64,000 nucleotides of DNA, from contig NZ_QNRT01000001.1 in the NCBI RefSeq assembly GCF_003315245.1, positions 963,457-1,027,456 of the forward strand, written 5' to 3'. The position numbers were made by a program, and so were the translations under genes. This DNA comes from Arenicella xantha. Lineage in GTDB: Bacteria > Pseudomonadota > Gammaproteobacteria > Arenicellales > Arenicellaceae. Under the pieces are notes generated by a model. It was not told where the DNA came from. It searched no databases and worked only from the letters and a program-made list of their open reading frames with translations. The first letter of the stretch is position 1; each line of letters opens with the position of its first letter. Shown here piece by piece: positions 20,242 to 32,212 of this stretch.

Positions 20242-22851
20242 CTAACGATTTGCAATAAGATAATTTAGCTCAGGTTTACAACTACCGCATTTTGAACCAC
20301 AGCCCAACGTCGAAGACAATTCCTCAATGCTCGACGTTCCGCCATCAATTGAGAGCTCAATGGCTTTACGCGTTGTGCCGAAGCAACTACAAATCAACTC
20401 ATCAGCACCACCAGCTTCTCCGCGCAATAGGTCAGACCAAGGCACAAGCTGTGGGTTGGCATAAAGTTGGTTTAACCATGTCAAGCTGGGCAAACGGCTA
20501 GCATCTACTGCAACGAACAACAAGATTTCAAGCTGATCCTGTTGGTAAGCGGCAATCACTTCTGATTCATCAATGGGGTTTTGGTACTGTGTAATCGTTA
20601 AATCACTATCACTAGTATTTAGCACCCATTGACGCCAATCGACTTTGGCATTCGTACCTACTAGGGTTGCTAGGCCTGCATCAACCACACTTTCAGCCCA
20701 ATAAACCCAAGCATGCTTGTCAATGGGCGCACGACTCACCACATATACCCATTGCCCGCAATCATAAGGTTCGATCGCTACAATAGCTGCTTTAGATTCC
20801 GGCTGGCCAGACACTGGGTCGACAACCGATTCAATGAGGTTGCAGACCACAGCGTGCGTGGCAAACTGTTGATTCCAATGAATTGGGCTAAACAGCTGCC
20901 CGGAAGCAATCGATTGAGAGACCTCCGCCCGCATCACAACTCGACCAAGCACGTTGCTCACTTGCACAAACTGATGGTGCTTGATCCCTAGTGTTAGCGC
21001 GTCTTCAGGGTTTATTTGCACAAATGGTAGCGGGTCATGCACGGTTAATGCGGGCACCGCTCCGGTACGCGTCATGGTGTGCCATTGATCACGCAAGCGC
21101 CCCGTATTTAGAATAAACTCAGCTTTTTTTGCCTGTATTTTTTTCGGTTTGCCACTCACAAACTGCGCTCGGCCGGAGGCGGTATAAAACTGCCCGTCCT
21201 CGAATAACCTATCCGTCCCTTGCGGATGCGTAGCGGTGACAGGCCATTGTATGGGAGTTAGTTCCTGATACTCGAGCTCGGACAAATCACTTAGTCCGCT
21301 AATATCGAAGGCTCGGCTACCTTGATTCTCAAATCCCGATAACGCCGCATGTTCGACAAAGATAGCGTGCGGGCTCTGATACGGGAAGTATTCTTGAAAG
21401 CCAAGTTGATGTGCAACCTGTGTTATTGCCCACCAATCGGCTTTAGCCGACCCTGGAGCTTGACGAAAAGCACGTTGGCGACTAATTCGTCGTTCAGAAT
21501 TAGTAACACTACCGTCTTTTTCTCCCCAACCCAATGCCGGCAGAACAATATCGGCAAAGTCGCTGGTATCAGTATGCGTCACATCGGACACAATTACCGT
21601 TGGGCAAATCTCAAGAGCCGCTCTGATTTTGTTACTGTTCGGTAGGCTTACGGCTGGATTGGTAGCCATAATCCACAGCACCTTAATCTTACCTTCTGCT
21701 ACCGCTTCAAATAAGTCGACCGCTTTTAAGCCGGCCTCATTAGCGATACGTGGTGAATTCCAAAATCGTTGCACACGATCGATGTCCCCCGATGAAAAAT
21801 CCATATGCGCAGCCAGTTGGTTAGCTAGACCACCGACTTCCCGCCCACCCATGGCATTTGGTTGACCGGTGATCGAAAATGGCCCAGCACCGGCATAACC
21901 CAAGCGACCAGTCGCCAAATGGCAATTGATGATGGCATTACACTTATCTGTTCCGGTAGCCGATTGATTAATTCCTTGCGAGTAAAAGCTTACCGTCTTC
22001 GGTGTCGCCAAAAACCAATCGAAGAATGTTTGTACTAAAGATTGGTCTAATCCGGTCTCACGCGAAACACGTTCAAGGCTCATTGCTTCAGCGCTGTTCG
22101 CAGCGGCTTCAAACCCATCAGTGTGACGATCAATGTAACCCTGATCGATACCATCAGTTTGAATTAGGTAACGCAACAACCCTTGAAACAAAAAGCCGTC
22201 AGTACTTGGCAACAAAGGTAAGTGTAAATCAACCAAGTCATTAGTAGCGGTCTGCCTCGGGTCAATTGAAACAACCCGCATATTGGGGTTATTAGCTTTA
22301 GCGGCAACCATGCGTTGATACAACACCGGATGGGTCCACGCCGCATTTGATCCGACCAGCACAATAAGATCAGCCACATCCAAGTCTTCGTAGCAGCAAG
22401 GCACCGAATCTGATCCGAAGGCCCGCTTATAAGCAGCCACCGCAGAGGACATACAAAGGCGCGAATTGGTATCAACGTTAGCGGTCCCAATAAACCCTTT
22501 CATGAGTTTATTTGCAACGTAATAATCTTCAGTCAGCAGCTGCCCCGACAAATAAAAGGCGACACTATCGCGCCCGTATTGCGCGATGCTTTGCTCTATC
22601 TTCCGGGCAATTGTTTGCGTTGCCTCAGACCAACTAACCGCCTCTCCATATACAACTGGATGAGTCAATCGGTTGCCGTCGCGGACACTGAGCAAGGTTT
22701 CCTTTAAATTGCTACCCTTGCTACAAAGTCGACCATAATTAGCGGGATGTGTTGGCGTAGCGAGGACAGTCTTAACGTCGTCATCGAGAACCGATACCGA
22801 CACACCACATCCGACACCACAATACGGGCAAGTGCTTAAAATTTCAGGCAT
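20242..22851 (-). CDS. nasA: Assimilatory nitrate reductase catalytic subunit
   Basis: This 869-residue cytoplasmic molybdopterin enzyme reduces nitrate to nitrite. The N-terminal 4Fe-4S site is CPYCGVGCG with a later LCSKGSN. The molybdopterin-oxidoreductase and dinucleotide-binding regions follow, with TGQPNAMGGREVGGLAN and QWHTMTRTGAVPAL typical of Nas/Nap-type enzymes. A BFD-like 2Fe-2S domain closes the protein (ICSCFGTTRKA, CGSKCGSCKPEL), as in Klebsiella-type NasA, where it passes electrons in. It is the last gene of the nitrate operon, 21 bp after nirD. Confidence 0.95.
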   Translation of the reverse strand: MPEILSTCPYCGVGCGVSVSVLDDDVKTVLATPTHPANYGRLCSKGSNLKETLLSVRDGNRLTHPVVYGEAVSWSEATQTIARKIEQSIAQYGRDSVAFYLSGQLLTEDYYVANKLMKGFIGTANVDTNSRLCMSSAVAAYKRAFGSDSVPCCYEDLDVADLIVLVGSNAAWTHPVLYQRMVAAKANNPNMRVVSIDPRQTATNDLVDLHLPLLPSTDGFLFQGLLRYLIQTDGIDQGYIDRHTDGFEAAANSAEAMSLERVSRETGLDQSLVQTFFDWFLATPKTVSFYSQGINQSATGTDKCNAIINCHLATGRLGYAGAGPFSITGQPNAMGGREVGGLANQLAAHMDFSSGDIDRVQRFWNSPRIANEAGLKAVDLFEAVAEGKIKVLWIMATNPAVSLPNSNKIRAALEICPTVIVSDVTHTDTSDFADIVLPALGWGEKDGSVTNSERRISRQRAFRQAPGSAKADWWAITQVAHQLGFQEYFPYQSPHAIFVEHAALSGFENQGSRAFDISGLSDLSELEYQELTPIQWPVTATHPQGTDRLFEDGQFYTASGRAQFVSGKPKKIQAKKAEFILNTGRLRDQWHTMTRTGAVPALTVHDPLPFVQINPEDALTLGIKHHQFVQVSNVLGRVVMRAEVSQSIASGQLFSPIHWNQQFATHAVVCNLIESVVDPVSGQPESKAAIVAIEPYDCGQWVYVVSRAPIDKHAWVYWAESVVDAGLATLVGTNAKVDWRQWVLNTSDSDLTITQYQNPIDESEVIAAYQQDQLEILLFVAVDASRLPSLTWLNQLYANPQLVPWSDLLRGEAGGADELICSCFGTTRKAIELSIDGGTSSIEELSSTLGCGSKCGSCKPELNYLIANR

Positions 22852-22872: not shown

Positions 22873-23208
22873 CTAAGCGCCCAAAACAACATGTGCGCCA
22901 CTGATCCGAGCTGGATAAACGGACACACTAGCATCGGCCTCGATACAGTCACCAGTACTCAAAGAGAAATGTTGTTTGTAGAGCGGAGATGCTACAACTA
23001 ATTCATCTCCAACACTGCCAACAATGCCTCGCGATAACACGTTAGCGTTGCCGAGCGGATCCCAGTTATCGAGCGCGTATAGTTTTTGTTCTGTTTCAGG
23101 CAGATAGAATAACGCGACCTGTTTTTGCTCTCCATGAACCTCGACTAAAGCACAAACACCCGAATTCACCACTAGATCACTGACGGTACAAATAATTTGT
23201 TGACTCAT
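22873..23208 (-). CDS. nirD: Nitrite reductase small subunit
   Basis: The 111-residue protein has the Rieske fold of NirD (LYALDNWDPLGNANVLSRG, SPLYKQHFSL, TGDCIE) but lacks the Cys/His pairs that would hold a 2Fe-2S cluster, which is normal for NirD. It partners NirB in NADH-dependent reduction of nitrite to ammonium in the cytoplasm. It lies 16 bp after nirB and just before nasA. Confidence 0.93.
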   Translation of the reverse strand: MSQQIICTVSDLVVNSGVCALVEVHGEQKQVALFYLPETEQKLYALDNWDPLGNANVLSRGIVGSVGDELVVASPLYKQHFSLSTGDCIEADASVSVYPARISGAHVVLGA

Positions 23209-23224
23209 AATTTCTAAACCTGCA

Positions 23225-25753
23225 CTAAGGCAGAACCTTTAATTGATTACGCCGCTTTTCAGCTTCCGTTGCAGGTCGAATTTGACCGCGTTCAGTGCTC
23301 ATTACAATGTTAGCGTCCCGTTCCGACGAATTAACAAACTGGCGAAACCGCTTGAGTTTATCGGCATCCCCAAGAGCGGTCTTCCATTCACATTGGTAAG
23401 TGTCAATAATGTGCTGCATTTGCGCTTCCAATTCAGCACCAATACCCAGCGAGTCATCGATAATCACACTCTGTAAATACGGCAAGCCCCCTTCCAAGCT
23501 TTCAAACCACACCGAAGTGCGCTGCAAGCGATCGGCTGTACGCACATAGAACATCAAGAATCGATCGATATACTGCAATAACGTTGGGGTATCCAAGTCA
23601 GTTGCAAACAAATCGGCGTGTCTTGGCTTCATGCCACCATTGCCACACAGGTAGAGATTCCAACCATTTTCAGTCGCGATTACCCCCACATCCTTACTTT
23701 GAGCTTCAGCGCACTCCCGAGTACAACCTGACACCGCCATTTTTAATTTATGCGGGGAACGCAGTCCTTTATAACGATTTTCCAGATCTATCGCTTGGCC
23801 AACGCTGTCTTGCACACCATAGCGGCACCAAGTACTACCGACGCACGACTTAACCGTGCGTAGTGACTTGGCATAGGCATGACCCGTTTCAAAGCCTGCA
23901 TTAATAAGTCGCCCCCAGATATCCGGAAGATCATTCAATTGAGCACCAAATAAATCGACGCGTTGCCCGCCGGTAATTTTGGTATACAAGCCATAGTCTT
24001 TCGCCACCTGTCCAAGCGAGATCAGCTGGTCGGGTAAAATCTCACCACCAGGCACGCGCGGAACCACTGAATAAGTGCCATCCTTTTGCATGTTTGCCAT
24101 AAACGTATCATTCGTGTCTTGCAGTGGTACCAAATCAGATTCCAGCACATGCTCATTCCACACAGACGCCAAAATTGACCCAATAGCAGGTTTGCAGATA
24201 TCACAACCAAGACCATTCCCGTGTTGGGCTATGAGTTCATTAAAGGTCTTTATCTGCGTACTTTGGACTATGGTAAATAATTGCTGGCGAGTAAATTTAA
24301 AGTGCTCGCACAAGTCCGTGTTGACCTCTAACCCACGCGCCGATAGTTCAAAATCAACCACGTTTTTAAGCAACGCTGCGCACCCTCCGCAGCCCGTCGA
24401 GGCCTTTGTACAGGTCTTGATATCGCCTAACGTAACTTGACCATCGTCGATGGCTGCCATCACATCCGCCTTAGTCACGTTATGACATGAACATATCGAA
24501 GCGGTCATCGGTAAAGCATCAACCCCTAAGGTCGGTGCCGCACCATTGGTCGCAGGCAAGATTAGGTTTTCTGCTTCCGCGGGTAATTCAATATCGTTCA
24601 AATAGTATTGCAAAATAGTATCGTAATCACTGCAATCGCCGACCAACGTAGCACCTAACACTCGCTTACCGTCTGCGGTTACATTTAAGCGTTTATATAC
24701 GTCATCACGTTCATCGCTAAATACGAAGGCTCGAGACTCCTCCACCACCCCCTTAGAATCACCAATTGAACCTACATCAACGCCGAGTAATTTGAGCTTG
24801 GTGCTCATATCTGCGCCGGTGAAGGACACTTTTTCTTTGGTTAGTTGAGACACTGCGGCCTCAGCCATTCGATAACCGGGAGCAACTAGCCCATAAATAA
24901 AGTTACCTAACACCGCACATTCACCAATTGCGAAAATATTCTCATCCGATGTTTTACAATGGTAGTCAATCTCAATACCACCACGTTCACCAACATTTAA
25001 ATCCGCATCACGCGCCAGTTGATCATATGGGCGAATTCCCGCCGAAAATACAATTAAGTCGGTTTCCAGCTGTGTTTCATCGGCAAACTCCATTTTCAAA
25101 CGATGCTGATCACCTGCGACGATTTTCTGTGTGGCTTTATTGGTGTGAACCTTAACTCCGAGCGCTTCAATTTTGCGCCGTAACATGCCACTACCGCCTT
25201 CATCGAGCTGTACGCCCATGAGGCCAGGCGCAAATTCGACAACATGAGCTTCCAAGCCTAAGTTCTTCAACGCATTAGCACACTCTAAGCCCAGAAGACC
25301 ACCACCCACGACGACACCCACCTGCTTTCCTTTGGCCGATGCTTTGATCTCAGCGAGGTCATCAATAGTGCGATAAGCAAGACAGTGCGCCTGTTCCCGA
25401 CCGGGAACCGGTGGAATAAACGGGTAAGAGCCTGTAGCAAGCACCAATTTATCGTACAAAAACTCCTGCCCGCCCTCGGTCACCACTTTTTTTCCAACTC
25501 GGTCTATTCTGGCGACGAAATCGCCAAAATGAGCATCTACCCCCAGCTCAACATAACGTTCTCGAGTGGTAAGTGCCAAATCTGAAGGCTTTTTACCATC
25601 AAAGACTTCAGACAAATGAACACGATCATAAGCCGGTCTTGATTCACCGCCGATAACGCAAATATCAGCATCTACACTGCTAGCAGCCAAAGTTTCGACA
25701 TAGTGGTGCCCCACCATTCCGTTACCCACAACAACAATTTTAAGTTTTTTCAT
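23225..25753 (-). CDS. nirB: NADH-dependent nitrite reductase large subunit
   Basis: NirB reduces nitrite to ammonium with six electrons from NADH. The 842-residue protein opens with a Rossmann FAD site (KIVVVGNGMVGHHYVE) and an NAD site (GVVVGGGLLGLECA). A BFD-like 2Fe-2S domain (CSCHNVTK, later CGGCAALL) follows. The C-terminal siroheme/4Fe-4S reductase domain has cluster cysteines in CVGSTWCRYG and CTRECAEAQ. The start is ATG 25751-25753; the frame runs upstream to 25831, but that part overlaps the leader and has no similarity. The porin gene ends 13 bp upstream. Confidence 0.96.
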   Translation of the reverse strand: MKKLKIVVVGNGMVGHHYVETLAASSVDADICVIGGESRPAYDRVHLSEVFDGKKPSDLALTTRERYVELGVDAHFGDFVARIDRVGKKVVTEGGQEFLYDKLVLATGSYPFIPPVPGREQAHCLAYRTIDDLAEIKASAKGKQVGVVVGGGLLGLECANALKNLGLEAHVVEFAPGLMGVQLDEGGSGMLRRKIEALGVKVHTNKATQKIVAGDQHRLKMEFADETQLETDLIVFSAGIRPYDQLARDADLNVGERGGIEIDYHCKTSDENIFAIGECAVLGNFIYGLVAPGYRMAEAAVSQLTKEKVSFTGADMSTKLKLLGVDVGSIGDSKGVVEESRAFVFSDERDDVYKRLNVTADGKRVLGATLVGDCSDYDTILQYYLNDIELPAEAENLILPATNGAAPTLGVDALPMTASICSCHNVTKADVMAAIDDGQVTLGDIKTCTKASTGCGGCAALLKNVVDFELSARGLEVNTDLCEHFKFTRQQLFTIVQSTQIKTFNELIAQHGNGLGCDICKPAIGSILASVWNEHVLESDLVPLQDTNDTFMANMQKDGTYSVVPRVPGGEILPDQLISLGQVAKDYGLYTKITGGQRVDLFGAQLNDLPDIWGRLINAGFETGHAYAKSLRTVKSCVGSTWCRYGVQDSVGQAIDLENRYKGLRSPHKLKMAVSGCTRECAEAQSKDVGVIATENGWNLYLCGNGGMKPRHADLFATDLDTPTLLQYIDRFLMFYVRTADRLQRTSVWFESLEGGLPYLQSVIIDDSLGIGAELEAQMQHIIDTYQCEWKTALGDADKLKRFRQFVNSSERDANIVMSTERGQIRPATEAEKRRNQLKVLP

Positions 25754-25766
25754 AAGTACTATTACC

Positions 25767-26942
25767 TTAGAATTTTGCGCCAGCCCAAACCCAGAGCTTA
25801 TCGGTGTCAACTTTGCCAAAGGCTGCATCACCAGCCGAATAGGCCGAAAACTTTATGCCCGCAGAGAAGTGCTTGTTGATGCCGCGCGTGTATTGCACAT
25901 TAACTTCATCACCAAGATCACTCACGCCATTGAGCGGTAAATCAGACGAATAATCATGATAGGCAGCCAACCATTTTCCACCGGCGAACTGGCCAGCAAC
26001 TGAAAGCACCACGTCTTCGAGTCCTTGATTAGGTGTCACCAAGAACTGATCACTCCAGCCATTGAATTTGTGTAATGTCGCCAACGGTGTTGCAAAGCCA
26101 TTAGCGCCATCGTCGGAACTCAGCACTTCGTAACCGAGCTTTGCGGTAATACCTGACCACACAGCACCGCCTTCCAGCAGTAGATAATCGGTATCGAATA
26201 CATTGTTAGTCTCTTGCTTAGCGTATTCGGCCGCATACAAAAGCTTAGATTCAGCCATAGCGACCGCGCCACTTAAACTCACGCCATACGTATCGAGCGC
26301 ATTGGGCAGGCCATTATCGACCTCAAGTAAGTAGGTATACCCGACCAACTTACCGAACGGTGTTTGATACGATGTATTGAGAATTACGTCCTTGCTGTCT
26401 ATATCCGCTTCTTCAGCAAAAATACGGTTTCGTTTATTCAGGTATGCCGCGTTAACCACTAAACCATCAATCGGTTTGACTGCGACTACAACACCATCGA
26501 ATGTCTGTCGGTCTTGACGCCAGCCAACGTGCCCAACGAAGCGATGCCCGTCGAGCGTAAACACCTGACGACCCACCTTTGCTGTCACCATACTGCTTGT
26601 GTATTGCACGAACGCCTGATCGATTTCAGTAACCTCAGGATCAGCAATCACCGAATACCGCCCAGGCTTTACTCCGGCTGGCGGCACGCTAAAATCGTCA
26701 ATTAGGCTCCGACTATCTTCGACCTCTAGCGTAGCTGACAAACCGGACCAATCCGCTGACTTATAGCCAAGCCGACTACGTAGCGTCAGCGCATCGGCGT
26801 CTTGTAAGGCGTTGCTTTGGTGAACCGACTCGTATCGCAAACGAAAATCGCCATAAACTTTACCTGCATCTTTTGCGTTATCTTGGGCGTTTGAATTGCC
26901 ACAAACGATACATATTGCAATAACCAAATAGACTCTTTTCAT
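25767..26942 (-). CDS. Outer-membrane porin-like barrel in the nitrate operon
   Basis: The 391-residue product has a signal peptide (MKRVYLVIAICIVCGNSNAQ) and then alternating amphipathic strands ending in KLWVWAGAKF, a C-terminal Phe typical of outer-membrane barrels. GDFRLRYESV and the VGRQVFTLDGHRFVGH segment resemble the alginate-export/OprD-like porin group. Lying between the nitrate ABC transporter and nirB in the same operon, it probably lets nitrate or nitrite cross the outer membrane. That substrate is inferred from context only. It is 93 bp after nrtD. Confidence 0.8.
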   Translation of the reverse strand: MKRVYLVIAICIVCGNSNAQDNAKDAGKVYGDFRLRYESVHQSNALQDADALTLRSRLGYKSADWSGLSATLEVEDSRSLIDDFSVPPAGVKPGRYSVIADPEVTEIDQAFVQYTSSMVTAKVGRQVFTLDGHRFVGHVGWRQDRQTFDGVVVAVKPIDGLVVNAAYLNKRNRIFAEEADIDSKDVILNTSYQTPFGKLVGYTYLLEVDNGLPNALDTYGVSLSGAVAMAESKLLYAAEYAKQETNNVFDTDYLLLEGGAVWSGITAKLGYEVLSSDDGANGFATPLATLHKFNGWSDQFLVTPNQGLEDVVLSVAGQFAGGKWLAAYHDYSSDLPLNGVSDLGDEVNVQYTRGINKHFSAGIKFSAYSAGDAAFGKVDTDKLWVWAGAKF

Positions 26943-27035: not shown

Positions 27036-27905
27036 CTAACTCACCTTCTCATCGTTACTCGACGCTTGAGCGGATTCTGCCGGTGTGGTTTCGATCTTCT
27101 TCTTAGCGGCATCAAAATCCACCACACCTTTCTTTTCATAAAGAAATGACAGAACTTGTTGCCGGTAATAGTTGAATTTATCGCTCTTCGCCAAGGCTAA
27201 ACGCTCTCGTGGTCGCGCTAGGTCGATCTCCAATATTTCGCCTACGCGGGCAGCCGGACCATTCGACATCATGACAATTTTGTCGGACATCAATACCGCC
27301 TCATCAACATCATGCGTGATTAGAATAACGGTCGTATTTAGCTCTTTCTGAATCTCCATCACCGAGTCCTGTAGGTTTGCTCGGGTCAGTGCATCAAGCG
27401 CACCAAATGGTTCATCCATTAACATCACCTTAGGCTGCATCGCCAAGCAGCGCGCAATACCAACACGTTGCTTCATACCACCAGAGATTTCATGCGGCAT
27501 CTTTTGAGTTGCATGATCCATCTTAACGAGGCGCAAGTTATGCTCTACCCACTCCATCATTTCAGCGCGCGTTTTATTTCCTTTAAATACCTGCTCGACG
27601 CCAAGCGCCACATTGTCATACACACTTAGCCATGGCATGAGAGCATGACTTTGGAAAACCACTGCGCGGTCTGGCCCCGGCTCATTCACTTCTTTGCCAT
27701 CCAAAATAACGCCACCGGAAGTCGCTTGATACAGACCCGCAACAATATTCAGGACGGTTGATTTACCGCAACCGGAGTGGCCAATTATCGACACGAATTC
27801 ACCTTCATTAATATGAAAATCGACATCGGACAAAGCACAATAAGTACCATTAGATGTTGGAAATTCGATTCCAACTCGCGATATTTCTAGAAATTTATTC
27901 ATCAT
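27036..27905 (-). CDS. nrtD: Nitrate ABC transporter ATP-binding subunit
   Basis: An ATPase of the nitrate/sulfonate/taurine ABC class, 289 residues. Walker A is GHSGCGKST, the signature is EISGGMKQR, and Walker B is VMLMDEPFGALD; the H-loop ITHDVDEA follows. The C-terminal tail is charged (FDAAKKKIETTPAE). It energises import of nitrate with NrtB and NrtA. Two ATGs are adjacent at the start (27900-27905). Purine-rich GGGAG lies just upstream. It is cotranscribed with nrtB, 18 bp apart. Confidence 0.92.
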   Translation of the reverse strand: MMNKFLEISRVGIEFPTSNGTYCALSDVDFHINEGEFVSIIGHSGCGKSTVLNIVAGLYQATSGGVILDGKEVNEPGPDRAVVFQSHALMPWLSVYDNVALGVEQVFKGNKTRAEMMEWVEHNLRLVKMDHATQKMPHEISGGMKQRVGIARCLAMQPKVMLMDEPFGALDALTRANLQDSVMEIQKELNTTVILITHDVDEAVLMSDKIVMMSNGPAARVGEILEIDLARPRERLALAKSDKFNYYRQQVLSFLYEKKGVVDFDAAKKKIETTPAESAQASSNDEKVS

Positions 27906-27923: not shown

Positions 27924-28922
27924 TTATCGAAGTACCGCCAGCTTGTCCCAGCTAACATAACGTTGTACCAACAAGATCAGACGATCTAGTGCGAAGCCAA
28001 GCAAACCGATTACTACCACCGCCACCATAATTCGTGACAAAGAATCGGATGATCCGTTTTGGAATTCGTCCCAAACAAACTTACCTAAACCGGGGTTCTG
28101 AGAGAGCATCTCAGCCGCAATCAACACCATCCAACCGGTAGCAAGCGACAATCGTAAACCGGTGAAAATCATCGGAATTGAGGCTGGTAAAATGATCTTC
28201 CTTACGTGCATGAGCGCTGGTAATTTGATCACACGACTTACGTTAAGCAAGTCCTTGTCGACATTGGCAACGCCTACAGCTGTATTAATCAAAGTTGGCC
28301 ACAAACAACATAAAGCAACCGTAAACGCTGAATTTAGAAAGGCTTTCTCAAACCAAGGGTCTTCGCTAACATAGACCGCACTAACCACCATCGTAATTAG
28401 CGGTAGCCATGCGAGTGGTGATACTGGTTTGAAAATCTGAATAAGCGGATTGATCGCCTTGTAAACACCATCACTTAAGCCACACACAATTCCGATTGGA
28501 ATGGCGATGAGAGACGCAATTAAAAAACCGAACATTACCGTTTTAAGGCTGGTTAAAACTTGATCGAAGAAAGTCTCCTTACCTGTGTATTTACGAATTT
28601 TGATCTTCGCATCTGGTTTTTTTTCTAGCTTCTTGGCATTACGTACTTCTTGGCGTTGATAAAATGCTTCCGCTTTTTGCTTCTCTACCTGATGCTCCTC
28701 GACTAACACTGCTGCTTGAGCATAAACTTGCGCCGGCCCAGGAAAGGTGCCCAGAGAAGTGTCAATTTGACTGGCAGTGTATGCCCATAAAAGACAGAAA
28801 AAGAACAAGCCAAGCAGCGGGTAAAGCAATGACTTGATGTCAATTGACATCACATACCGCTTTAGCGCAGGGATCAAACTGCTCAACCGAGAGTTAGCAA
28901 CTTGGTTTGATGGAATAGTCAT
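27924..28922 (-). CDS. nrtB: Nitrate ABC transporter permease
   Basis: The 332-residue permease has a first membrane segment near residues 33-53 and a BPD-type transporter core with the EAA-like loop region (SRVIKLPALMHVRKIILPAS). PVSPLAWLPLITM is characteristic of NrtB/CmpB permeases. Between the first helix and the core lies a highly charged 50-residue stretch (VEKQKAEAFYQRQEVRNAKK), probably an extramembrane helix. It forms the membrane channel for nitrate uptake with NrtA and NrtD. Confidence 0.92.
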   Translation of the reverse strand: MTIPSNQVANSRLSSLIPALKRYVMSIDIKSLLYPLLGLFFFCLLWAYTASQIDTSLGTFPGPAQVYAQAAVLVEEHQVEKQKAEAFYQRQEVRNAKKLEKKPDAKIKIRKYTGKETFFDQVLTSLKTVMFGFLIASLIAIPIGIVCGLSDGVYKAINPLIQIFKPVSPLAWLPLITMVVSAVYVSEDPWFEKAFLNSAFTVALCCLWPTLINTAVGVANVDKDLLNVSRVIKLPALMHVRKIILPASIPMIFTGLRLSLATGWMVLIAAEMLSQNPGLGKFVWDEFQNGSSDSLSRIMVAVVVIGLLGFALDRLILLVQRYVSWDKLAVLR

Positions 28923-28954: not shown

Positions 28955-30313
28955 CTACAACGTCTCGTCTTTAAGACCAATTGCAAACTTTTCTAAATAG
29001 GCATTGGGCTGACGACCATCGAAGCTTATGCCGTCGATAAACTCAGTCTGCTCAGGCTTAAAACCTGACTCTGTTGCAAAATCAGGAAATTCATCGGCAG
29101 ATAAAGTCCCTTCATCGATAAGTTCCTTTGCCGCAAGCGCGTATAAATCTGGCTTATATACATCCGAGGCGGTTTTGATATACCAATCGTCCGACTTCGG
29201 TTCGGGTATTTGACCCCAACGACGCATTTGAGTGAGGTACCAAATGGCGTCTGAGTAATATGGGTAGGTAGCGTTGTAACGAAAAAACACATTGAAGTCT
29301 GGCACATTGCGCTTATCGCCTTTCTCATACTCAAAAGTACCGGTCATTGAGTTTGCAATAACATCTTCGTCCGCTCCGACGTAATTGGACTGAGAGAGAA
29401 TTTTGACCGCGGCAGGCCGATTCGCGTTGTCATCTTCATCAAGCCATTTAGCCGCTCTAATTAGCGCCTTGACCACTCGAATGGTTGTAATTGGATACTT
29501 TTCAGTGAACTCCTGAGTCATCCCAAAGACTTTCTCTGGATTGTTCTTCCATATTTCATAGTCGGTTATCACTGGCACACCGATTCCCTTAAACACGGCC
29601 TGTTGATTCCACGGTTCGCCAACGCAATAGCCATGAATGGTTCCAGCTTCAAGCGTAGATGGCATTTGTGGCGGCGGAGTCACCGACAGTAAAGCATCGG
29701 CGTCGATGTTACCTGCCGTGTCACCTTTATGCGGAGCGTAATAGCCTGGATGGATTCCACCTGAGGCTAACCAATATCGTAGCTCGTAGTTGTGCGTGGA
29801 AACAGGAAACACCATACCCATCTTGAATGGTTCGCCCTCCTCCTTGAATTTTTCAACCACTGGCTTAAGATAGTCGGCCTTAATCGGGTGAACCGGCTTT
29901 CCATCTTTCACGGGAATGTATTGCTTCATCTGAGCCCAGATTTCATTGGATACGGTAATACCGTTGCCATTTAAATCCATCGAAAACGGTGTGACGATAT
30001 GCGCTTTGGTTCCGTACCCAATGGTCGCCGCCAATGGTTGCCCCGCCAACATATGAGCACCATCGAGTTTGCCGTCAATTACACCATCCAACAACACTTT
30101 CCAATTAGCTTGTGCCTCGATCGTTACGTAAAGACCCTCATCCTCAAAATAGCCGTTTTCATAGGCAATTGCGATGGGCGCCATGTCGGTCAACTTAATA
30201 AAGCCGAATGTTAACTCGTCCTTCTCAGGCTCTCCGAGCTCGGCAAAACTAGCCTGACCGAAAAAGGCAAGCCCAATGGTTAACAGGAATTTATGTGTGA
30301 CTTGACGAAACAT
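28955..30313 (-). CDS. nrtA: Nitrate-binding protein of the ABC transporter
   Basis: The 452-residue product has a Sec signal peptide ending near FGQASFA and then a CmpA/NrtA-family periplasmic binding domain ([21 protein letters not shown]; later [17 protein letters not shown]). It captures nitrate and delivers it to NrtB. The signal peptide argues against it being the cytoplasmic sensor NasS, which belongs to the same superfamily. It is the first gene of the nitrate operon, behind a long leader and a sigma-54 promoter motif. Confidence 0.92.
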
Positions 30314-30485
30314 AGAGCAACCTCTAGAAAAATAGATGATCGACCCAATAACCCCAAAACGAGCATATTGAAGAGAGGCACTGAGTGCGGTGAATAAAAA
30401 TTGGCAAACTCAGCCGAATGAAATCTCAGCAGAGTATGATTTGAGCATTGCTTGGCATCAGTCGAACGTCGTTGTTGTCGGATGC

Positions 30486-30504
30486 CACCGATAAGTTATC
30501 GGTG
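30486..30504 (-). promoter_or_regulatory. Palindrome in the nrtA leader, possible ANTAR-target region
   Basis: CACCGATAAGTTATCGGTG is a palindrome with only its centre base unpaired, within the predicted 290-nt untranslated leader of nrtA. It would fold as a hairpin in the RNA. Its place, between promoter and first gene of an operon linked to an ANTAR protein, fits a role in antitermination. I could not identify the conserved two-hexaloop ANTAR motif with certainty. Confidence 0.45.
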
Positions 30505-30613
30505 CTGGAAAATCAGGAAGAGTAGGCTATGCGTCGACTGCGGCCTATTGCGAGTATCCTTGCTCCAGAAAGTTTTTTAGCAGAGAGGTGAGTTAAGATT
30601 GTGATTTAGTTTA

Positions 30614-30629
30614 AGCACGAAGTGTGCCA
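30614..30629 (-). promoter_or_regulatory. Sigma-54 promoter motif of the nitrate operon
   Basis: On the minus strand the sequence TGGCACACTTCGTGCT carries the -24 GG and -12 GC at the exact sigma-54 spacing. The only weak position is the T before TGC in the -12 element. The predicted transcription start is near 30603, leaving a leader of about 290 nt before nrtA. A nearly identical element precedes nasT at 31446. Confidence 0.8.
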
Positions 30630-30683
30630 ACTCTCAAAGCTCAGCTAACTCCCTTTAGTCGGCTTTTGGTCGGGCTAATCAGA

Positions 30684-30713
30684 CTTTGCGGGGCGATACC
30701 CTGCCCCACAAAG
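30684..30713 (-). terminator. Hairpin after nasT
   Basis: CTTTGCGGGGC (30684-30694) and GCCCCACAAAG (30703-30713) form an 11-pair stem with one wobble and an 8-base loop, starting about 35 bp after the nasT stop. No T tract follows, and the right arm overlaps the NtrC-like site, so it may be partly regulatory. Confidence 0.5.
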
Positions 30714-30718
30714 GTGCA
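30702..30718 (-). promoter_or_regulatory. NtrC-like enhancer site
   Basis: The minus strand reads TGCACCTTTGTGGGGCA, matching the NtrC pattern TGCACC-N5-GGTGCA at 11 of 12 defined positions. Its centre is about 107 bp upstream of the predicted sigma-54 start for nrtA, the usual distance for an enhancer. Confidence 0.65.
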
Positions 30719-30746
30719 ATCGATGACTGAAATGCACGATTAAGTA

Positions 30747-31388
30747 TCATGCCAATATTTCAGTTACCTCGATAATTCGCTTCGACAATTCCACCATTGT
30801 CTGCCCGTGATCCATCGCCGAACGTCGCATTTGAGTGTACGCCTCGTTCTCAGTTAGCTGCTTTTGTTCCATCAAAATGCCTTTGGCACGCTCAATTAAT
30901 TTTCGATCCGATAGCCTTGCCTTAGTTTCGTTAAGCTCTGTGCACAAGCTTTGCATTTGATTGAAGCGAAACACCGCGAGATCGATAATCACAGGCAGCC
31001 GGTGTGCCCGAACATCATCAACAACATACGAGCTTACGCCGGCCTCAATCACCTTCTGAACCAGCTCTGGCGCGTGTCTACGGGCAAATACAATAACTGG
31101 AAGTGGCGCAATGTCGTTGATCTCAACCAGTTGTTGCAAGGTTTCTGGGTCCAATGATTCGACCGACAGAATAAGCACATCTGGCGTCATAACTTTAACT
31201 TTATCCAGCAATTGCTTGGCCGACTCGGAGACCTCCAGTGCTTCAAAATTTTGATCACGTAACTTTTCTGCCAGAAAATCTGAGCTGGAAAACTGCTTTA
31301 CGTTCTCAATTAATAGAATACGATGCGTATACATACGCACGGCGTTCGCAGTCACTTGACTGTGAATAGAATGGTGTTTTGCGTTCAT
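30747..31388 (-). CDS. nasT: NasT-type ANTAR antitermination regulator
   Basis: The 213-residue protein has an N-terminal receiver-like domain and a C-terminal ANTAR RNA-binding domain (LIERAKGILMEQKQLTENEAYTQM split over residues 159-182). NasT binds leader RNA hairpins so that RNA polymerase reads into the nitrate genes. In known systems a nitrate-binding partner, NasS, holds NasT back; no nasS lies nearby. The receiver has Ser75 (VLILSVES) where a phosphoacceptor Asp would stand, so phosphorylation is unlikely. A GAGG six bases before the ATG at 31388 supports this start. A sigma-54 motif lies about 60 bp upstream. Confidence 0.87.
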   Translation of the reverse strand: MNAKHHSIHSQVTANAVRMYTHRILLIENVKQFSSSDFLAEKLRDQNFEALEVSESAKQLLDKVKVMTPDVLILSVESLDPETLQQLVEINDIAPLPVIVFARRHAPELVQKVIEAGVSSYVVDDVRAHRLPVIIDLAVFRFNQMQSLCTELNETKARLSDRKLIERAKGILMEQKQLTENEAYTQMRRSAMDHGQTMVELSKRIIEVTEILA

Positions 31389-31445
31389 TTCATTACCTCG
31401 AAAAAACCCACTGACAATCCAGCATCGTCAGATATGACCTCGCGA

Positions 31446-31461
31446 AGCACGAAGCGTGCCA
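31446..31461 (-). promoter_or_regulatory. Sigma-54 promoter motif of nasT
   Basis: The minus strand reads TGGCACGCTTCGTGCT, which keeps the -24 GG, -12 GC and spacing and differs from the nrtA element at one base. The predicted start is near 31435, about 45 nt before nasT. No NtrC-like site was found close upstream. Confidence 0.75.
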
Positions 31462-31492
31462 ATTTTAGATAACTAGATCAGCATTTACTCGA

Positions 31493-32212
31493 TTAAGATA
31501 GAAACGATGCAACCCAGTTGGGCAAGGCCTCACCGGCTTTCGCATAAACTGCATGATCGAACTCACTAGCCACCGATGAAGCCTCTAGATTAATTTCAAT
31601 AGTGGTTGCGCCAGCCTGATTAGCGGCTTGTACAAATCCAGCGGCTGGGTAGACATTTCCAGATGTTCCGATAGATAGAAATAAGTCACACGATGCCAGA
31701 GCTGAATAGATTTCGTCCATATACAGTGGCATTTCACCAAACCACACAATATGAGGCCTGAGACTCCCGGCTCGTTGGCAACAAGCGCACACCGAATCCA
31801 CTGAGATCGCGGTATGACAAGCAAATATTTCGCCGCTGACAGTGCAGCGCATTTTGAGAATCTCGCCATGCATATGCCGAACGCCTGAAGAGCCAGCGAG
31901 TTCATGTAGATTATCTATGTTCTGAGTGACCAGTAAAAAATCACCATTAAACTTTTGCTCTAATTGAACCAATGCAACATGAGCTGGATTCGGATCAATC
32001 GCGCCCCGTAACAGCGGTTCACGCCGTTGATTGTAAAATCGATGGACAAGCATCGGGTCGCGCGCAAACCCTTCTGGAGTCGCTACATCTTCGATGCGAT
32101 GCTCCTCCCAAAGCCCGTCGCTGGCACGAAAAGTTTTAATGCCGGACTCAGCCGAAATACCGGCGCCGGTCAGCACCACAATAGATGAATAGTCTCGATA
32201 GTTAGGCTTCAT
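31493..32212 (-). CDS. cobB: Sir2-family NAD-dependent protein deacylase
   Basis: The 239-residue enzyme removes acyl groups from protein lysines using NAD. Motifs are [25 protein letters not shown] and the catalytic HGEI, with a zinc site of four cysteines ([10 protein letters not shown] and CACC). The Tyr60/Arg63 pair in RFYNQRRE marks the class III sirtuins, which prefer succinyl and malonyl groups. It lies upstream of nasT in the same direction but is separated by the nasT promoter motif, so a functional tie to nitrate is not implied. Confidence 0.93.

Follow-up and report, generated by a model that had tools for sequence, protein, structure and literature searches.

Predicted sigma-54 promoters of nasT and the nrtA operon in Arenicella and an NtrC-like site between them

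The nitrate cluster of Arenicella xantha very probably contains two sigma-54 promoters, one in front of nasT and the other in front of the nrtA operon, as judged from a comparison of sequences within the genus. The explanation which accounts best for the results as a whole, and to which we assign a probability of roughly 0.8, combines these two promoters with NtrC acting from 30702-30718, a likely remote activation of nasT, NasT working on the nrtA leader and, probably, no nitrate brake. Its support at the sequence level consists of the conservation of promoters and enhancer, the presence of rpoN and NtrC, a genus-wide hairpin motif and the failure to find NasS; what we infer is the occupancy of the site by NtrC, the remote activation of nasT, the action of NasT on the A. 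xantha leader and an unbraked NasT.

The nitrate cluster and its sigma-54 motifs

Coordinates refer to the window, that is, the whole 64-kb stretch of A. xantha DNA (genome G000) that was analysed, and the genes of the cluster are all on its minus strand. The nasT gene (30747..31388) codes for 213 aa with a degenerate receiver and an ANTAR RNA-binding domain (PF03861, 1.3e-19); its Response_reg match of 24.8 bits remains below the cut-off of 30.2. It is followed by genes for an nrtA-like nitrate-binding protein of 452 aa (28955..30313), whose N terminus looks by eye like a signal peptide, an nrtB-like permease (27924..28922; TIGR01183, 160.9 bits, below the cut-off of 209), a nitrate ABC transporter ATPase (27036..27905; TIGR01184, above cut-off), a porin of the alginate-export / Opr-like kind (25767..26942), the nitrite reductase large subunit, nirB (23225..25831; TIGR02374, above cut-off), a probable nirD, assigned from size and position only (22873..23208), and a molybdoenzyme (20242..22851). 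For the latter, every model stayed below its cut-off, the best being formate dehydrogenase (461.7 bits, cut-off 666), with NasC at 414.7 bits (cut-off 1100); by its context, this gene probably encodes the assimilatory nitrate reductase. Directly upstream of nasT lies a gene for a Sir2-family deacetylase (31493-32212), as in 10 of 14 Arenicella loci according to a reading of the ORFs; PADLOC returned nothing for Sir2 plus NasT.

Other arrangements exist within the genus. G014 (L032) has nasT followed by what appears by eye to be a nirB-like ORF, with a terminator-like hairpin and a T run in between; since no second sigma-54 promoter was found, the sequence suggests a nasT-nirB operon with internal antitermination. 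At the corresponding place in G006 (L073 / L033), an apparent nrtB remnant, also recognized by eye, replaces nrtA after nasT and is followed by the ATPase gene, which looks like decay of the cluster.

The first-pass annotation had proposed two near-identical sigma-54 promoters of the form TGGCAC(A/G)CTTCGTGCT with exact -24/-12 spacing. Both 16-mers are minus-strand sequences, one preceding nasT at 31461-31446 (TGGCACGCTTCGTGCT; predicted +1 at 31435) and the other preceding nrtA at 30629-30614 (TGGCACACTTCGTGCT; predicted +1 at 30603), both genes downstream of them are minus-strand genes, and the distance from GG to GC is canonical in both motifs. From the 16-mer to the start of the gene, there are 57 bases for nasT (start at 31388) and 300 bases for nrtA (start at 30313). 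A genome search for the same 16-mer near other nitrogen genes had been suggested; the exact pattern has two occurrences in the entire 4.44 Mb genome, namely these two, and the core pattern together with an NtrC site is also found before glnA and glnK. Genome-wide, up to two mismatches to the 16-mer were seen at 6 places vs 4 for the reversed control, and the core TGGCACRN5TGCW gave 26 matches vs 7 for the reversed control, 14 of the 26 being located outside ORFs of at least 150 aa.

In total 21 genomes were searched, and 14 of the genus (A. xantha and 13 relatives) hold a nasT relative at 2e-26 or better; the nrtA sites come from the 11 genomes in which nrtA follows nasT. For the scans we used a sigma-54 score matrix and an NtrC consensus. 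Sigma-54 scores of 15.3 or more occur about 1.0 times per shuffled 64-kb window, so a high score is not rare by itself, and it is the position before orthologous genes which lifts the motifs above chance. When the regions were fixed without looking at the site, no more than 2 of 200 shuffles scored at least as high as the observed motif in 13 of the 14 nasT upstream regions and in all 11 nasT-nrtA intergenic regions. The sole exception is nasT of G006, which has no sigma-54 site within 150 bp upstream; a match scoring 13.6 is found about 390 bp upstream, at the end of the contig. TGGCA and TGCT are invariant in all 24 equivalent sites, which stem from 13 Arenicella genomes; this constancy is somewhat inflated by the choice of the sites by score, which would nonetheless have tolerated changes at several of the invariant positions. 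Spacer and inner arm bases drift: position 6 is C in 19 and T in 5 sites, position 7 is G in 17 and A in 7, there is no constraint at positions 8 and 12, and variation is also seen at the first T of TTGC. Genus-wide conservation and scores above those of shuffled sequences thus uphold the reading of both motifs as putative promoters of nasT and of the nrtA operon. The rpoN gene is present as a single copy (439 bits, cut-off 277).

A scan for sigma-70 promoters, with 5 sites vs 2.1 in shuffles, was set aside; one 9/12 match overlaps the nrtA sigma-54 site. Between the nasT promoter and the start of the gene, the leader contains a hairpin followed by TTTTTT (31411-31431), and a hairpin in the corresponding position can be seen by eye in G001 and G008; this element is possibly an attenuator of nasT.

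NtrC-like sites and the activation of the two promoters

An NtrC-like site matching 11 of 12 positions had been noticed about 107 bp upstream of the motif before nrtA. This site (TGCACCTTTGTGGGGCA, 30718-30702, minus strand) is the only one with at least 11/12 in the 64-kb window, and relative to the predicted nrtA +1 (30603) its centre is at -107, which corresponds to +725 relative to the nasT +1. A second, degenerate NtrC-like site (TGATACTTAATCGTGCA, 30733..30749; 8/12) overlaps the nasT stop codon with its centre at -138, and its right half GTGC is kept in 10 of 11 aligned rows (not in G011). The NtrC sites of E. coli glnAp2 are located at -108/-140, a spacing resembled by the two centres in A. 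xantha. Within 350 bp upstream of nrtA, a site of at least 10/12 occurs in 9 of 11 genomes (centres from -76 to -234), with no more than 4 of 100 shuffles as good in any of these nine; for G017 and G010 the best site is 9/12, and 22 and 32 of 100 shuffles, respectively, did as well.

The genome also encodes NtrC (678.9 bits, cut-off 558.6). Among the 26 core matches, just 4 have an NtrC match of 11/12 in the 300 bp preceding them, namely those of glnA, of glnK, of nrtA and of a gene for a TorF-type porin. The number of NtrC patterns in the genome was discarded as evidence in itself (22 places vs 17 for the control); since the pattern is barely enriched, single matches are weak and the argument is carried by context. 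On these grounds of sequence conservation, NtrC control of the nrtA operon appears well supported. Under nitrogen limitation, phosphorylated NtrC would bind to 30702-30718, with a weak second site at -138, and loop to RNA polymerase-sigma-54 at 30629-30614, upon which transcription of the nrtA-nirB-nitrate reductase operon would start. Elsewhere in the genome, a single pair of NtrC-like sites is shared by the divergent sigma-54 promoters of glnK and the divergently oriented TorF-type porin gene (C2:999966-1000213), and only one NtrC site was found that is perfect (12/12); it is located between glnA and ntrB (C1:829499-829515).

Nitrogen-starvation control had been predicted for both genes. It stands for the nrtA operon with its conserved NtrC-like site, but upstream of nasT no site of at least 10/12 was found within 350 bp in any of 13 Arenicella genomes, so that for nasT we can only infer a control by NtrC or nitrogen. 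Still further upstream, a 10/12 match occurs in 2 of 13 loci (at -434 and -1101), which is about the background density. Just after nasT, a site of at least 10/12 is present in 11 of 13 loci, nine of which are the nrtA sites. G014 and G002 possess such a site after nasT, yet no sigma-54 site scoring at least 10 was found within 700 bp downstream on either strand; in G002 it is followed by a convergent ORF, and the one of G014 is ambiguous and may be a terminator because it is located inside a hairpin. According to the accessible text of a review (PMC7408454), enhancer-binding proteins can have their sites as far as 3 kb upstream of the start or as far as 1.5 kb downstream of it. Because of this record of downstream action and of the NtrC-like sites just after nasT, we favour, without proof, one enhancer serving both the nasT and the nrtA promoter. 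The same NtrC, acting from about +725, would then be the likeliest activator of the nasT promoter, for which no site of its own was seen.

It is possible, albeit doubtful, that the nasT promoter depends on sigma-54 but is activated by an enhancer-binding protein other than NtrC. The lack of an upstream site in the 13 Arenicella genomes would fit, and the search for the NtrC family in the genome yielded four further long matches of 227-340 bits. Other genera point both ways. The cross-genus list holds at least 80 nasT loci, including three Arenicella contigs (L073, L074, L102), and among the matches listed 14 of 77 nasT loci from other genera have a sigma-54 match of at least 14.5 near the nasT start. 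Nine of these 14 (again among the matches listed) are likewise without an NtrC-like site, but five carry one of at least 10/12 within 350 bp upstream, three of them at 11/12 (L119, L142, L149) and 84-107 bp before the sigma-54 motif, measured start to start. Moreover, the NtrC site before nasT is required for expression in Paracoccus, as stated in the available part of PMC5424462, and the alignment upstream of nasT revealed no other conserved element to which a different activator might bind. Since the NtrC site is missing in nine of the 14 loci from other genera as well, its absence before nasT is not peculiar to Arenicella, and we dropped the idea that it marks a departure of this genus.

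A further reading, which we consider unlikely, is that NtrC drives nasT either by reaching a high concentration or from weak sites, deviating from the consensus, within the upstream Sir2 gene. A four- to fivefold higher concentration of NtrC allows activation in the absence of a nearby site (PMC7408454, in its accessible text), and A. xantha has a 9/12 match at -81 of nasT; however, this match was equalled by 35 of 100 shuffles, and none of the relatives has one at that place among the top four listed.

The motifs had also been described as near-palindromic (GCACG/CGTGC), with another regulator as a possible reader. The arms are as described in A. xantha, where 5 of 5 arm pairs match before nasT and 4 of 5 before nrtA, both copies being near-perfect inverted repeats with an identical CTTC centre, and all five pairs are kept in 4 of the 24 sites (nasT of G000 and G016, nrtA of G017 and G007). 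That GCAC(G)N3(C)GTGC is the operator of another regulator, or an RNA hairpin, with an incidental likeness to sigma-54 sites is nevertheless extremely improbable and was ruled out by the column statistics: the sigma-54 consensus in itself dictates the three outer arm pairs, and the two inner pairs are complementary no more often than composition predicts, without further covariation (pair 6-12 in 8/24 sites, about 7.4 expected; pair 7-11 in 11/24, about 12.5 expected, as calculated by hand from the column counts of the 24 sites; position 12 is A9 G7 T5 C3). Judged from these columns, the near-palindrome is a by-product of the sigma-54 consensus.

NasT, the nrtA leader and the search for NasS

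Beyond the two promoters with their possible common enhancer, NasT would act on the nrtA leader through ANTAR hairpins. The leader of the nrtA operon in A. xantha comprises 290 nt (30314..30603, minus strand) compared with 89-249 nt in ten relatives, all leader starts having been assigned mechanically, and it holds the inverted repeat CACCGATAAcTTATCGGTG. One candidate ANTAR-type hairpin, P1, is located at 30454..30486 (minus strand; GGCAUC...AAC-AACGAC-GUU...GAUGCC), with the hexaloop AACGAC (A1, G4) and an outer stem drawn by eye; its inner stem has 3 bp in A. xantha and up to 11 bp in relatives. Six-base loops with A at position 1 and G at position 4 are the signature of ANTAR targets (PMC3369931, text seen in part). 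The 11 Arenicella nrtA leaders together contain 20 such hairpins vs 1.7 expected, a number not equalled in any of 200 shuffles. A. xantha itself contributes one minimal hexaloop hairpin, and a second one was not found in its leader; G011 has none under the strict rule.

When P1 was aligned, 7 of 11 pairs were changed on both sides and 78.5% of the cells were paired vs 36-53% when the rows were slid, which is modest evidence as there are eleven rows, registered by hand on the loop; one slid version has eight pairs changed on both sides, and further pair types are not above shuffles. No intrinsic terminator, which in ANTAR antitermination leaders follows or overlaps the second of the tandem hairpins, stood out clearly from shuffles (8 per leader) in the 11 Arenicella nrtA leaders; the leader of G010 has a modest one of -8.0 kcal/mol before TTTTTT, and by eye several other genera have hexaloops followed by strong terminators. 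A search for Rfam families in 30200-31600 gave none up to E = 5, and the fold of the whole A. xantha leader is uninformative (z = -0.85). With a single minimal hairpin, no second one and no terminator above chance, the action of NasT on the A. xantha leader is thus uncertain.

NasS, a cytoplasmic nitrate sensor which resembles NrtA, is the inhibitor of NasT. With NasS of Marinobacterium as a query, only the NrtA gene was matched (about 155-161 bits) in 11 of the 12 Arenicella genomes that gave any match, 8 of these 12 being at least 90% complete and 4 under 90%. In G014 there is one more match, which is weak and split into two parts (61 and 52 bits). The nrtA-like gene at 28955..30313 is the only NrtA/NasS-like gene found in the A. 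xantha genome, and in G002 and G006, both with nasT, no NrtA-like gene was found. As a control, 5 other genomes each showed a separate, stronger match, taken as NasS (216-893 bits), in addition to NrtA, and one of them a third, weak match. For Colwellia demingiae, the query found NrtA only.

Residue 75 of NasT, the phospho-acceptor, is an aspartate in none of the 14 Arenicella proteins and an alanine in Colwellia demingiae. At the 67 loci with an adjacent NasS/NrtA-like gene it is D in 49, H in 12, G in 5 and a gap in 1, among the matches listed. Adjacency was defined as a gene with less than 50% identity to NrtA within 700 nt of nasT; the resulting 67 of 80, again among the matches listed, is an upper bound because the rule also catches NrtA proteins with a signal peptide from other clades. 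The genome-level NasS controls are therefore the better evidence.

Loss of nasS leads to constitutive expression in Paracoccus (PMC3795266, text seen in part). Since NasS was not found, the Arenicella NasT probably works without a nitrate-sensing brake, which would leave the nitrogen status as the main signal. Tentatively, one may think of a switch without NasS, in which both promoters are driven by one NtrC enhancer, lying, in the case of nasT, about 725 bp downstream of the start, and in which NasT acts constitutively on the leader RNA in an amount that is set by NtrC and takes the place of nitrate sensing. We put forward with the same reserve that NasT has in this way become free of both NasS and its receiver aspartate. 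Another such case may be Colwellia demingiae, whose NasT has alanine at residue 75 and in which the query likewise yielded no NasS.

Relation to known systems

That nitrate genes can be under the control of sigma-54 is well established, and such control has already been predicted for nasT. A survey from 2025 (PMC12316311) predicts, in the part available, sigma-54 promoters in Pseudomonadota for COG3707, to which nasT-type genes belong, and for the nitrate ABC transporter genes of COG0600, COG1116 and COG0715, so that the kinds of target, the promoter class and the phylum are all the same as here, and our principal finding adds one more case to a kind already described. To these promoters by COG, as far as that text goes, Arenicella adds the genus-wide conservation, the possible shared enhancer and the failure to find NasS. 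Going by the sequences, Arenicella appears to depart from the known kind in that NasS was not found, the aspartate of the receiver has been lost and no clear terminator is seen in the leaders. Within the literature searched on NasT without NasS, Arenicella and Colwellia, with subscription papers mostly outside the search, this arrangement is unreported. If NasT has truly lost its sensor throughout this marine genus and the hairpins persist, the bacteria may have given up induction by nitrate in favour of control by nitrogen status alone, a testable case of a two-signal circuit collapsing to one. Likewise, an enhancer for a tandem promoter pair, one of them served from downstream, would provide a useful natural system in which to test how NtrC acts over a distance.

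The nasTSABGHC system of Paracoccus denitrificans (PMC5424462; PMC3795266, both seen in part) can be likened to what is proposed for Arenicella, as nasT and the nas genes depend on NtrBC and NasT acts on leader hairpins. There, mutation of the NtrC site before nasT lowered expression on nitrate from 14,500 units to 220 (PMC5424462, accessible part). The two systems differ in the position of this site, which precedes nasT in Paracoccus (available text of PMC5424462) and follows nasT, before nrtA, in Arenicella, and in NasS, which is present in Paracoccus (PMC5424462, PMC3795266, in the same parts) and was not found in Arenicella.

Within the same genome, the promoters of glnK and the TorF-type porin gene resemble those of nasT and nrtA in that two sigma-54 promoters are associated with one NtrC-like site pair. 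However, the former are divergent with the sites between them, whereas the nasT and nrtA promoters are in tandem with nasT in between. In Klebsiella, nasF is sigma-54/NtrC-dependent. The NasR of this organism is a one-component NIT-ANTAR sensor (PMC3369931, text seen in part), in contrast to the ANTAR protein of Arenicella with its degenerate receiver and no known sensor. Going by the same part of that paper, the nasFEDCBA/NasR system combines a nitrogen-regulated start with ANTAR antitermination at hexaloop hairpins in the leader, as is proposed for Arenicella.
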